Of a DNA stretch of 64,000 nucleotides, positions 26,974-31,596 are shown piece after piece. The translations under genes were made by a program, and so were the position numbers. The notes under the pieces were generated by a model, which saw only the letters and a program-made list of their open reading frames with translations, searched no databases and was not told the DNA's origin. This stretch comes from Spirochaetia bacterium (lineage in GTDB: Bacteria; Spirochaetota; Spirochaetia; CADAEX01). How positions within the stretch are numbered: position 1 is the first letter of the stretch; each line of letters opens with the position of its first letter. The stretch spans positions 62,001 to 126,000 of the forward strand of contig JAFSOR010000028.1 in NCBI GenBank assembly GCA_017446885.1, in the 5' to 3' direction.

Positions 26974-29550
26974 ATGGCAGTATCGCTTTCTTCAATATTA
27001 AAAGATTCAGAACTTTCTTTAAAGCAATTTACAGAAAAATATAAAGCTGAACTTGAAAAAAGCATAGAGTATAAAGATATTGGAGAAGGCGTAAAGCCGT
27101 ATGCAAAATGTATTCTCCGCGGAAAAGACATCTTCATGAAGCCCGAAGAAGTTGTCAGACAGCTTTTTGCACGGAAGCTCATAGAAGAGTATGGATATCC
27201 AAAAGATAATATAAGTTTTGAAAAGCCTGTAAAATCAGTAGGAAGAACAAAATCAGACACCGACTTTGCTGATATAGTTGTTTTCACAGACAGTTCAAAA
27301 GAAAAAGCATACATTATTTTTGAAATAAAACGTCCGGAAGAAAAGAATATAGAAGAACAGAAAAAACAGCTTGAAAGCTATTGCCTAGTGGAAGGAGCAA
27401 GTATTGGTGCCCTGATAAATGGAGATGACATAGAACAGTTTTATGTGAACAACATAGATAAAGAGACCAAGACCCATACGTTAAAAGACATACCTAAACT
27501 GCCAAAATATGGTGAAACGTTAGATGATATTTTAAATGCCCGTTTTACCTTCAAAAGCCTCATTTTAAATGACAGACTCCGCAATGAAACATTAAAGAAA
27601 ATCATAAAGGATCTGGAACAACGTTTTTCTGCTAACGACTCAAGCGATAAAAGTTTTGATGAAATATTAAAACTTATTTATTGCAAGTTGTTTGATGAAT
27701 TTAATCACAGCGATGATGCTGATTTTGTATCCCGAAATGTTAAACGGCGGCTTAAAAAAGATAATGGCATCACCTATTACGAGGCTTTGGAAGAAATAGC
27801 TGATGATGATTTCAGCCTTATGGAATTCAGGGCAAAACATTCCGAAGATGAAAAAGTTGTTTTTGACAGGATATCGGCCTTGTTTAAAAATGCCCAGAAT
27901 CATTGGAAAGGTGCCTTTGCCCCTAATACCGTTCTCAATATGCAACCAAGTACTGTCAAATCCTGTGTATTGGAATTTCAGAATGTTAAACTTTTCAATT
28001 CAAACCTTGAGGTTGTGGATGAAGCCTTTGAATATTTGGTGAATAAGAACCAGAAAGGGGAAATGGGACAATACTTTACCCCGCGGTATGTGATTGATAT
28101 GTGTGTCCGCATGCTGAATCCTAAAAAAGAAGAAACCATGATAGACACTGCAAGTGGTAGCTGCGGATTCCCTATGCATACAATACTTCACGTATGGGAC
28201 AAGTTTGATAACCTGACTGCAAAGCGCCAGCCGTGGGAGACAGACTATGTCCGAGATAAAGTATTTGCCATAGATTTCAGCGAAAAGGCTGTAAGAGTAG
28301 GTAAAATACTGAATATTATCACGGGAGATGGGCATTCCAATGTCCTGTACCTCGACACTCTTAATTATTCACGTTGGGAATCCCAGTTCAAAAATGACAC
28401 TGGCTGGTGGGCAAAATATAATGAGGGTTTTACACGGCTTGAAAACTTATGTGCTGATGGAAAAAAGTATTCGCATTTCAACTTTGATATCCTTATGGCA
28501 AATCCTCCTTTTGCAGGTGACCTTGACGATAAGAAAATACTTGGGCAGTACGAACTGTCTAAAAATTCAAAAGGACAGATTCAGAATAAGGTTGGACGCG
28601 ATATCCTTTTTATTGAACGTAACCTGAATTTCCTTAAGCCGGGTGGACGAATGGCAATAGTTCTGCCACAAGGTCGCTTTAATAATTCAAGCGATAAATA
28701 CATCAGGGATTATATTGCAGATAAAGCCAGGATTCTGGCTGTAGTAGGACTGCATGGAAATACATTCAAGCCGCATACTGGAACAAAAACCAGTGTTTTG
28801 TTCATCCAGAAATGGACAGATAAGGATGGCATAAATCCCAAGAAAGATGATTACAATATCTTTTTTGCTACCATGCAGGAACCCAGCAAAGATAATTCTG
28901 GAGATAAAATATATGTCACAGAACACTATTATGAGGTAAAAAAGTTTACCTATAAAACATCAGAAAAATATTATTTGGGTACTGAAGAACTTTCGAAGGA
29001 CGAATATGATGCAGCTGTTACAGATGACAAGAAGAAAAAGCAGTGCAAAATAAAAATTATACCTACTGTTCTTACAGCCTCAACTAATTACAGGGAATAT
29101 GAGTTTGATGAGAAATTTGGCACCAAGGATGCAGACAGTCAAAAGACATGGATCCAAAAAGCAGTGCAGTTTGTGCTTAAACCTGTCAAAAAGGATAAAA
29201 AGCAGGAAGAAAACCTGAAAAGCCATATTTCTGTTGATGAATATCTGGCACTCCAAGAAGAAACAAAACAAAAATATAAAGAAGTTCCTCAATTAGGGAC
29301 AAATGTCAATGACCCGATTGATAATGGAACTTATACTACTCTTTCGGCCTTGGCTAAGAAGTTCTATCTTCCTGAAACCGATGTGAGCGAGCGGACAGAG
29401 CGTGTAAAAGATACCCATGGACATATTTTTGTCAGACATGACCTTTTCAACCATGATCCGGATTTAAAGCCACAAGGTAGATACTGCAAAGACGGCATAG
29501 CCGAAGCCTTTGCTGAATTTGCAAAGAAAGAGGGCCTAAGTTTTTTCTGA
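26974..29550 (+). CDS. restriction nuclease-methylase fusion (type I/IIB-like RM subunit)
   Basis: An 858-residue protein. The N-terminus resembles the HsdR N-terminal nuclease domain: the PD-(D/E)xK-like motif has Asp100 in DFADIVV and Glu117-x-Lys119 in IIFEIKRPE. From about residue 345 an N6-adenine methylase of HsdM type follows: GQYFTPRYVIDMCVRML, motif I at 390-398 (DTASGSCGF) and motif IV NPPF at 510-513. No ATPase/translocase HsdR gene is in the window, so the layout is closest to BcgI-like type IIB systems, with a nuclease-methylase chain plus a separate specificity subunit. Lower GC suggests horizontal acquisition. The stop at 29548 directly follows a slippery heptamer. Confidence 0.85.
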   Translation: MAVSLSSILKDSELSLKQFTEKYKAELEKSIEYKDIGEGVKPYAKCILRGKDIFMKPEEVVRQLFARKLIEEYGYPKDNISFEKPVKSVGRTKSDTDFADIVVFTDSSKEKAYIIFEIKRPEEKNIEEQKKQLESYCLVEGASIGALINGDDIEQFYVNNIDKETKTHTLKDIPKLPKYGETLDDILNARFTFKSLILNDRLRNETLKKIIKDLEQRFSANDSSDKSFDEILKLIYCKLFDEFNHSDDADFVSRNVKRRLKKDNGITYYEALEEIADDDFSLMEFRAKHSEDEKVVFDRISALFKNAQNHWKGAFAPNTVLNMQPSTVKSCVLEFQNVKLFNSNLEVVDEAFEYLVNKNQKGEMGQYFTPRYVIDMCVRMLNPKKEETMIDTASGSCGFPMHTILHVWDKFDNLTAKRQPWETDYVRDKVFAIDFSEKAVRVGKILNIITGDGHSNVLYLDTLNYSRWESQFKNDTGWWAKYNEGFTRLENLCADGKKYSHFNFDILMANPPFAGDLDDKKILGQYELSKNSKGQIQNKVGRDILFIERNLNFLKPGGRMAIVLPQGRFNNSSDKYIRDYIADKARILAVVGLHGNTFKPHTGTKTSVLFIQKWTDKDGINPKKDDYNIFFATMQEPSKDNSGDKIYVTEHYYEVKKFTYKTSEKYYLGTEELSKDEYDAAVTDDKKKKQCKIKIIPTVLTASTNYREYEFDEKFGTKDADSQKTWIQKAVQFVLKPVKKDKKQEENLKSHISVDEYLALQEETKQKYKEVPQLGTNVNDPIDNGTYTTLSALAKKFYLPETDVSERTERVKDTHGHIFVRHDLFNHDPDLKPQGRYCKDGIAEAFAEFAKKEGLSFF

Positions 29551-29595
29551 ATTGCCCTTTTGACGAGGCAAAGTACAATGCTTTGTTAAAAGGGC
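29541..29595 (+). promoter_or_regulatory. candidate programmed -1 ribosomal frameshift signal
   Basis: The last sense codons of the methylase, AGT TTT TTC TGA, contain the heptamer T TTT TTC (29541-29547) in the correct frame. Six bases later an 8-bp stem GCCCTTTT/AAAAGGGC (29554-29561 with 29588-29595) encloses an inner stem GGCAAAG/CTTTGTT. A -1 slip would read straight into the specificity-subunit frame. Confidence 0.6.
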
Positions 29596-30941
29596 TGGAA
29601 GTGAATGAAGTTAGGTTTTCTGGGTTGAATGACGAGCATAGAATTGATGCTGAATGTTATAGAAAGTCTTTCTTGCAATTTGAAAAAGCTATTTGCGCAA
29701 AGAAATATACGACCGTTGGTGATGTTGCCCGCTTTTTGATAGGTCCTTTTGGCTCTGCATTTGATACTGCGAATTACATTGAAAATGGCAAATATCGCTA
29801 TGTGCGTGGTCAAGATGTAAAACCATTCGTCTTAAAAGATGATGATTGTCGATATGTTCCGGAAGCAGATTTTAATCGTCTGTCTAAATATGCTTTAAAA
29901 GAAAACGATGTACTCGTTTCTGTTGTTGGAACTTTGGGAAATGCTTGTATTGTTGAAAAAAAAGATTTACCTGCAATTTTCAGTTGTAAGAGCACTGTCA
30001 TTCGTGCCGAAAAAATAAATCCATTTGTATTGCTTGCTTATTTAAACTGTCGTTATGGACGAGAACTTTTGTTGCGGAAAGAACACGGAGTAATTCAAAA
30101 GGGCTTAAATCTTGATGACTTAAAAACTTTATTGATTCCAGTTTTTGATAATGACTTTCAGCAGAAAATCGCTTCTCTCGTAAAATCTGCACACGCAAAA
30201 CTTTCCGAATCAAAATCGCTCTACTCACAGGCAGAAGACACTTTGCTTTGTGAGCTTGGTTTGAAAGGCTGGCAGCCAAAGAACGAGGCGGTTTCAATAA
30301 AGACATTCTCGGATTTCGAGATGAGCGGTCGCTTGGATGCGGAGTATTACCAGAGCAAGTATGATGAACTTTTTGAGAAACTCGCGCATTACAACTGCAA
30401 ACACTTGGGTGATATTGTTTCCGTCAAAAAATCGGTAGAGCCGGGAAGCGATAGCTACAAAGAAAACGGGATCCCGTTTATCCGTGTTTCAGATGTTAAT
30501 AAATACGGTATTGCAGAAACAGACTTGCATTTGTCGGCTCAAGAATTCAATTTAAAAGACTTGCGACCTCATAAAGACACGATTCTTTTTTCAAAAGATG
30601 GAAGTATTGGTATTGCATATAAGTGCGAAAAAGACTTAGATGCAATCACTTCGGGAGCATTGCTTCATTTAAGCATTAAAGATACTGAAGTTTTACCTGA
30701 TTATTTGACGATGGTACTAAATTCTATTGTTGTTCAGTTACAAGCCGAGAGAGATTCAAACGGTGCAATCATTCAACATTGGAAACCTGATGACATAAAG
30801 CGCGTCATAATTCCTATTCTTCCGCACGAAACACAGAATCAAATTGCGGACTGCATACAGCGGTCGTTTGCATTGCGCTCAGAAAGTAAGCGGATTTTGG
30901 ACGAGGCAAAGGCAAACGTAGAAGGTGAGATTGAAAAGTAA
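29583..30941 (+). CDS. hsdS: type I/IIB restriction-modification specificity subunit (HsdS-like)
   Basis: This protein supplies DNA target recognition for the upstream nuclease-methylase. About 450 residues with the two-fold HsdS plan: a first target-recognition domain (about 35-190) and conserved helix, then a second (about 250-430) and helix. Repeated signatures include the 'LDAEYY'-type starts (RIDAECYRKS, RLDAEYYQSK). The start is unclear. The frame is open from 29517 and has no ATG before residues that read as normal protein. TTG at 29583 and GTG at 29601 (after AAGGG) are the candidates. The frame could also be entered by -1 frameshift at 29541-29547, giving an RM-S fusion. I list the TTG. 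AT-rich, like its partner. Confidence 0.8.
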   Translation: MLKGLEVNEVRFSGLNDEHRIDAECYRKSFLQFEKAICAKKYTTVGDVARFLIGPFGSAFDTANYIENGKYRYVRGQDVKPFVLKDDDCRYVPEADFNRLSKYALKENDVLVSVVGTLGNACIVEKKDLPAIFSCKSTVIRAEKINPFVLLAYLNCRYGRELLLRKEHGVIQKGLNLDDLKTLLIPVFDNDFQQKIASLVKSAHAKLSESKSLYSQAEDTLLCELGLKGWQPKNEAVSIKTFSDFEMSGRLDAEYYQSKYDELFEKLAHYNCKHLGDIVSVKKSVEPGSDSYKENGIPFIRVSDVNKYGIAETDLHLSAQEFNLKDLRPHKDTILFSKDGSIGIAYKCEKDLDAITSGALLHLSIKDTEVLPDYLTMVLNSIVVQLQAERDSNGAIIQHWKPDDIKRVIIPILPHETQNQIADCIQRSFALRSESKRILDEAKANVEGEIEK

Positions 30942-31021: not shown

Positions 31022-31297
31022 ATGGCTACAGCAGTACTACAAACAAGAGTTGATACAAAGATAAAGCAGGAAGCAGAAGGTCTTTTTGAATCCTTAGGTC
31101 TGGATATGACAACAGCAATCAGATTGTTTTTGCGCCAGGCAGTAAATCAACAGCGTATTCCTTTCGATATAGTTCCTCCCCAGTATAATTTTACACCAGA
31201 GACTCTTTCTGCTATTGAAGAAGCTCGAAGAATTAGTAAAGACTCATCAGTAAAAGCCTATTCAAGCGCAAAAGAACTTCTTGAGGATTGCGAATAA
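31022..31297 (+). CDS. dinJ: RelB/DinJ-family antitoxin
   Basis: A 91-residue antitoxin. Residues 1-45 form the ribbon-helix-helix DNA-binding domain: the strand TAVLQTRVDTKIKQEAE, then LGLDMTTAIRLFLRQAV, a DinJ hallmark. The C-terminal half, rich in charged residues, would wrap around and block the toxin. Antitoxin-toxin complexes of this type repress their own promoter. AGGAGG precedes the ATG with ideal spacing. Its stop overlaps the toxin start by one base. It stands just after the restriction genes, an arrangement typical of genomic islands. Confidence 0.92.
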   Translation: MATAVLQTRVDTKIKQEAEGLFESLGLDMTTAIRLFLRQAVNQQRIPFDIVPPQYNFTPETLSAIEEARRISKDSSVKAYSSAKELLEDCE

Positions 31298-31596
31298 TGG
31301 AATGTATCTTAAAGAAAACTTCGCAATTCAAGACCAGTTTTAAGCTTGCAAAAAAACGGGGGTTGGATATTTCTCTGCTTGAAAAAGTTGTTGATAAGCT
31401 GATGAAAGATGAAAATCTTGAAGAAAAATATCATAATCATCAGCTTGTCGGTAATTTTAAAGATGTTTGGGAGTGTCATATTCAACCTGACTGGTTGCTT
31501 TTGTATTTGAAAGAGTATGACGACAAGATAAAAAAGAATGTTCTTGTATTGACTTTGGTTAATACAGGAACGCATAGCGATATTTTTAAGAAATAA
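31297..31596 (+). CDS. yafQ: YafQ-family mRNA interferase toxin
   Basis: A 99-residue RelE-superfamily endoribonuclease that cleaves mRNA on the ribosome. Residues matching the YafQ active site are visible: His48, His61, Asp65, His93 and Phe97 (motifs HNHQL, HIQPDW and THSDIF), so the toxin appears intact. The ATG at 31297 shares its A with the antitoxin stop (TAATG). Three more upstream codons are possible but lack support. The 3' end overlaps the convergent CinA-type gene by 11 bases. Confidence 0.92.
   Translation: MECILKKTSQFKTSFKLAKKRGLDISLLEKVVDKLMKDENLEEKYHNHQLVGNFKDVWECHIQPDWLLLYLKEYDDKIKKNVLVLTLVNTGTHSDIFKK

Follow-up and report, generated by a model that had tools for sequence, protein, structure and literature searches.

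The nuclease-methyltransferase (RM) gene and the specificity (S) frame in this DNA meet at what is very probably a programmed −1 ribosomal frameshift site, from which both RM and an RM-S fusion would be made on one mRNA. As judged by comparison of homologous sequences, the junction device is real, conserved and under selection at the RNA level, its heptamer and hairpin being kept in members of at least eight bacterial phyla. Within the window, by which we mean the whole 64,000-nt stretch that was analysed, the locus consists of the following features.

26974..29550, + strand: RM gene (858 aa; zero-frame product), with an HSDR_N-type PD-(D/E)xK nuclease domain and an N6-adenine methyltransferase
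29517..30941, + strand: S (specificity) frame with two target-recognition domains, −1 relative to RM (Methylase_S, two stretches in Pfam)
29541..29547, + strand: slippery heptamer T_TTT_TTC, read from the sequence
29548..29550, + strand: RM zero-frame stop TGA, directly abutting the heptamer
29548..29553, + strand: 6-nt spacer TGAATT from heptamer to hairpin core, read from the sequence, its offset kept in homologues
29554..29595, + strand: 17-bp hairpin, candidate stimulator (fold, z-score, synonymous-recoding test and covariation)
29554-29570, 29571-29578 and 29579-29595, + strand: 5′ arm, loop (8 nt) and 3′ arm of the hairpin
29541..29600, + strand: linker FFLNCPFDEAKYNALLKGLE, read in the −1 frame only, found in frameshifted and most fused members

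The RM/S junction in the window

The RM protein contains an HSDR_N_2 domain (residues 57-174) and an N6_Mtase domain (346-655) according to Pfam, and its NPPF, D100 and E117-x-K119 motifs are invariant among 34 homologues. Both by sequence and by fold, its nearest solved relative is RM.BsaXI. In the zero frame the gene ends as ...AAG AAA GAG GGC CTA AGT TTT TTC TGA, and the first-pass annotation of this DNA was correct in placing the heptamer against the stop and a 6-nt spacer after it. Its description of the S frame also stands, namely a frame −1 relative to RM that is open from 29517 and has no ATG near its start. This frame runs until a stop codon at 30939-30941 and contains both Methylase_S stretches.

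Beyond the spacer, two nested stems had been described. A hairpin is indeed present there, but its arms (GCCCTTTTGACGAGGCA and TGCTTTGTTAAAAGGGC) pair as one continuous stem (14 Watson-Crick and 3 G-U pairs), whose inner register differs slightly from the one described. When the RNA is folded from 29548, the hairpin has an energy of −26.2 kcal/mol (z −6.9), and none of 200 shuffles is equally stable. Rfam has no family for this element; the sole Rfam match, to mir-130, is a chance one (E 0.54, far under the gathering cut-off).

In the mechanism that we propose, the mRNA entrance would be occupied by the hairpin, 6 nt downstream, at the moment when the ribosome sits on T_TTT_TTC. A fraction of ribosomes almost certainly slips back one base at this point, to TTT TTT, and would continue in the S frame, which would thus be translated as the C-terminal part of an RM-S fusion of ~1,320 aa with the slip-spanning peptide ...EGLSFFLNCPFDEAK..., while the remaining ribosomes would terminate at TGA and release RM. 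The ratio of RM to RM-S would be set by the heptamer, the spacer and the hairpin. Both the frameshifting and its efficiency are predicted here from the layout of the junction and its conservation.

Conservation of the heptamer, spacer and hairpin

Homologues were collected with an alignment-query scan, from which the best 80 of 511 genome relatives were taken together with 12 loci from a viral collection, and more were added from whole-genome searches; being the best 80 of 511 matches, the sample is biased toward the nearest relatives. The heptamer served to recognise two-frame members; spacer, stem and linker played no part in choosing them. With duplicates removed, 91 junctions were tested: 75 non-redundant two-frame junctions, of which 60 have T_TTT_TTC or T_TTT_TTT (kind T) and 15 have G_GGA_AAG, once G_GGA_AAA (kind G), and 16 in-frame RM-S fusions (kind F). 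The heptamer is found in none of 26 further, more distant junctions (kind W). S lies in the −1 frame in all 75 two-frame junctions, and the same junction as in the window recurs in several relatives, including L006 (60% identity).

Kinds T and G are found in Spirochaetota, Bacillota, Bacteroidota, Planctomycetota, Pseudomonadota and Verrucomicrobiota, as well as on plasmid and viral contigs, and kind F additionally in Synergistota and on a cyanobacterial plasmid. No RM match at E ≤ 1e-100 was found in the six other genomes of the window's genus or in four of a sister genus. Among Synergistia (the class of G405), 14 of 101 genomes carry RM homologues at E ≤ 1e-200, mostly fused; in the samples other than Synergistia, 1-4% of genomes carry them at this threshold. 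One RM homologue, L009 (G313:C64), has a TAG and a TAA inside and is probably a decaying gene; its junction signal is intact.

The two heptamer classes, T_TTT_TTY and G_GGA_AAG/A, are unrelated and occupy the same position, with the same 6-nt spacer and the same hairpin. Elsewhere in the same genes, heptamers of these classes occur in frame at 0.0003 per codon. The zero-frame stop follows the heptamer immediately in 43 of the 75 two-frame junctions and one codon later in 29, and an 8-bp stem core is anchored 6 nt after the heptamer in every one, its first six positions being paired in 74-75 of 75. Spacings of 5-9 nt make up the range most commonly studied, and G_GGA_AAG is highly shift-prone in E. 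coli (PMC5009743). This conservation of heptamer class, fixed spacer and covarying hairpin across phyla bears out the first-pass proposal that a programmed −1 frameshift joins RM and S. The same annotation had suggested aligning homologous loci to see whether heptamer and stem persist where codons vary; over the 75 junctions, the stem is kept and the heptamer belongs to one of two classes.

Selection on the hairpin as RNA was assessed by holding the S-frame amino acids fixed and redrawing codons from each gene's usage, with 500 recodings per junction. In all 91 junctions the stem outscores at least 95% of its recoded versions, and in 77 of them it outscores 99%, with a mean score of 29.9 compared to 13.6 after recoding (largest null mean 14.8). 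Core pair 5, which matches the third base of a Pro codon to the third base of the codon preceding Gly, is paired in all 75 two-frame junctions, as T-A (40), C-G (13), A-T (13), G-C (5), T-G (3) or G-T (1). Watson-Crick combinations account for 71 of these, where permutation gives 28.6 and, over 5000 permutations, never more than 43, and the state of the pair changes at least 20 times on a methyltransferase-domain tree of 112 rows. Across the 60 ungapped junctions, covariation is 0.273 versus 0.180 when shuffled, a value reached in 0 of 500 shuffles, and the signal is destroyed when the pairing partner is slid. Double-sided changes are seen at 10 of the 17 pairs, and the first 11 pairs are intact in 60 of 60. 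The inner pairs, 12-17, are not kept in every member, and the second stem of the first-pass annotation is therefore not a conserved element in its own right but an extension that only some members have.

The codons that form the stem can be followed alongside the peptide. The Gly codon is GGG in 60 of 62 cases and the Ser codon is AGC in 50 of 50. The stem is kept despite peptide changes to LLGQLE (L025), LLGKLE (L026), NGHE (L024, L131), EGRE (L031, L063) and EGPE (L047), and it is retained in L144, where the linker is partly lost. By its pattern of substitution, the linker is also conserved as protein in the −1 frame from the slip point, across species; in the linker codons 5′ of a recurrent TTG, variation falls mainly at third positions of that frame. 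The linker is absent from S proteins with a separate start.

Fused and distant relatives, and alternative explanations

All 16 fusions retain the heptamer, and a strong hairpin starts ~6 nt downstream of it. After the slip, their −1 frame meets a stop at 2 codons in six fusions (TTT TTT TGA), at 3 codons in six and at 7-8 codons in four. Because this frame so soon reaches a stop, a slip would yield the short RM, a dnaX-like mirror image of the two-frame arrangement, and such fusions again agree with the frameshift claimed in the first-pass annotation. The Synergistota fusions have their −1 stop at 3-8 codons rather than 2, making the reversed arrangement less strict. In three fusions (L028, L036 and L134), a different perfect hairpin replaces the usual stem at the same offset, which in L028 and L036 has 15 bp and a 3-nt loop. 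T- and F-type junctions adjoin in the tree, as with L140 among the Synergistota fusions, and a single-T difference, T7GA in fusions versus T8GA in two-frame members, relates the two arrangements. We infer that the fusions keeping the device are the best separator of two-product frameshifting from a mere route to making S.

The 26 kind W relatives provide a control group. Their mean stem score (11.2) is that of the null (11.3), and their mean fold energy is −6.5 kcal/mol, compared to −24.7 for kind T and −23.9 for kind G. Their S proteins begin MQYSIV...RIDAE... close 3′ of the RM stop and lack the SPF..KY..LL.GLE linker. Where the S start can be read, it is in nearly every case an ATG of the gene's own, and heptamer, hairpin and linker are all missing from these distant relatives. 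For the first-pass annotation, frameshifting would be refuted by homologues whose junction is unrelated and whose specificity gene has a clear ATG. Homologues of this type are confined to a more distant, mostly separate region of the tree, apart from a few scattered members that seem to have lost the device (L022/L023, L073 and L095), of which L023, L073 and L095 are placed inside the frameshift group. L022 and L023, both from Streptococcus, are close to the frameshift group but have lost heptamer and hairpin, and a TTG that overlaps the end of RM could serve as their S start.

The only serious rival to frameshifting is re-initiation, and the two may occur together, as they can coexist (PMC3711429). 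In this explanation, ribosomes would stop at the RM stop and restart S at TTG (29583) or GTG (29601) through translational coupling, with the hairpin only modulating re-initiation. Coupling of this type operates at the EcoKI hsdM-hsdS overlap (PMC3510504). A TTG overlaps the RM stop in 18 of 75 homologues, most homologues carry a TTG in the linker or the hairpin 3′ arm, and RefSeq starts the Klebsiella and E. coli S at a TTG within this arm (L018 7866, on a Klebsiella plasmid, and L148 6034, in E. coli copies), although this start is probably a wrong, forced annotation. Against coupling, no start codon is conserved: ATG, GTG and TTG are all absent from codons 2-16 in 12 of 75 junctions, ATG or GTG is present in only 5, and matches to the Shine-Dalgarno consensus extend to 5 nt at most and mostly to no more than 3. 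Coupling would also leave unexplained why two slippery heptamers stand at a fixed 6-nt distance, why the linker is conserved at the protein level 5′ of the TTG and why in-frame fusions retain the device. We thus consider it an improbable account of the junction.

Two further explanations place the change of frame in the DNA or the transcript, and we hold both to be very improbable. The first-pass annotation had raised phase variation of the T6 run, by which S would be switched on and off, and transcriptional slippage at the same run would give mixed mRNAs. A run of T6-T8 is indeed present at the frame junction of most members, and the single-T differences between fusions and two-frame members are in keeping with this idea. 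However, the 15 homologues with G_GGA_AAG/A have no T run, and since G_GGA_AAG cannot be a poly-T slippage site, neither process explains the family. Moreover, the run in the window is only T6, versus n > 8 cited for transcriptional slippage at T runs (PMC3711429), S is in −1 at every two-frame junction, four copies, one from Klebsiella and three from E. coli, are 99.9-100% identical, and the covarying hairpin would lack an explanation. Alternatively, an assembly error or a recent indel could have split one fused gene into a pseudogene. Fused homologues are known (L017, L028, L036, L068, L088 and others), but the homologues as a whole refute this explanation: 75 junctions spread over many phyla share the arrangement and show compensatory changes in the RNA. 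In the window, neither RM nor S is otherwise damaged. Programmed −1 frameshifting is the explanation that we carry forward.

Predicted products and comparison to known systems

RM and RM-S would together build an (RM)2S-like enzyme with the architecture of BsaXI and BcgI (Type IIB), in which S is tethered to one RM, an assembly that we consider reasonably likely. In the structure predicted for L088, which is a natural fusion, RM is followed by a complete S that forms two globular regions with a long helix after each. Since the nearest fold, BsaXI, is (RM)2S and the L088 model includes a complete S, one RM and one RM-S would make a tethered (RM)2S. By sequence, the locus has the characters of Type IIB, namely nuclease and N6A-methyltransferase in one chain, an S with two TRDs and no HsdR translocase gene beside RM/S in the 24-34 kb region of the window, and Type IIB cleavage by the RM/RM-S enzyme would be expected.

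The first-pass annotation had proposed that cells make both RM and RM-S and thereby shift between a BcgI-like and an MmeI-like enzyme. We retain the two chains, and favour their simultaneous production over shifting, since the fused relatives have retained the device and its effect there would be to produce the short chain. It is likely that the frameshift in this widespread RM family serves as a stoichiometry device, with a near-fixed ratio of RM to RM-S assembling as (RM)(RM-S), the tethered (RM)2S, and that the two-product output is kept through polarity flips and heptamer replacement. The simplest reading is that the output of RM and RM-S is what selection keeps; polarity could flip and the heptamer be replaced because only this output matters.

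The natural comparators are accordingly BsaXI, BcgI and an artificial EcoKI M-S fusion, rather than MmeI. BsaXI is an (RM)2S Type IIB enzyme (PMC11997821) and BcgI is A2B (PMC4027205). Both share with the present system a nuclease-N6A methyltransferase chain and an S chain with two TRDs, but their S is a separate chain (PMC11997821, PMC4027205), whereas here part of the RM would be covalently linked to it via the frameshift-encoded linker. The single-chain Type IIB enzymes TstI and AloI join RM and S in a single polypeptide, as the predicted RM-S product would. TstI, however, is a homotetramer with its domains at 1:1:1 (PMC4027205), whereas the present system is expected to give RM as well as RM-S. 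For DNA cleavage in vitro, the artificial EcoKI M-S fusion ("Type IMS") depends on free M supplied separately, and its authors were obliged to postulate that cells obtain free M from some source (PMC3510504). The RM junction device would be a source of this type, supplying both chains from one mRNA. The EcoKI fusion differs in having been engineered by removing a frame change, with no programmed frameshift, and EcoKI itself is a Type I system with a separate HsdR motor. The MADS profiles MAD2 and MAD5 also give significant matches to the RM and S proteins, at 268 and 170 bits, respectively; these are far under the curated NCBIfam cut-offs of 720 and 400 bits, and we rejected membership in MADS.

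As a frameshift site, the junction most resembles that of E. coli dnaX (tau/gamma), where an in-frame heptamer and a downstream hairpin lead to long and short forms of a protein (PMC5009743). The −1 frameshift of dnaX makes gamma in E. coli, and the roles of the zero-frame and shifted products are reversed in other bacteria (PMC5009743); a role swap between species is thus common to dnaX and the RM/RM-S family. The two differ in heptamer (A_AAA_AAG in dnaX versus T_TTT_TTY and G_GGA_AAG here), in an upstream Shine-Dalgarno stimulator, which is not demonstrated for the RM junction, and in the shifted frame, which at the RM junction adds a whole two-domain specificity subunit.

To our knowledge, few cellular bacterial genes have conserved programmed −1 frameshifting (dnaX, cso2 and some others). 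In a search that covered the open literature, no restriction-modification system was described as using programmed frameshifting, and the main text of the 2013 GeneTack survey (Antonov et al.) names no restriction cluster. If the frameshift is real, the annotation of RM/S systems of this type as two genes is wrong and its S start false, the result of cloning such an enzyme depends on a recoding signal, and an RNA hairpin sets the RM to RM-S ratio, a quantity relevant to self-restriction and specificity. Naturally occurring variation, with two heptamers and two polarities, would also be a ready series for measuring the effects of heptamer, spacer and stem on efficiency.

Outside the junction, RM in the window carries an insertion of ~160 aa preceding its conserved C-terminus (residues ~650-810; window 28930-29410). 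It is common to the long-RM relatives L020-L027 and is predicted to be strand-rich, with repeated strand-helix units. The S frames of L054, L055 and L078 are 709-731 codons long, ~240 codons above the usual length. The upstream neighbours of RM in the window are PurL/PurQ-like proteins (identified from translations alone) and a dicarboxylate symporter, and genes for a RelB-like antitoxin and a YafQ-like toxin lie directly 3′ of the S frame (31022-31596, + strand).
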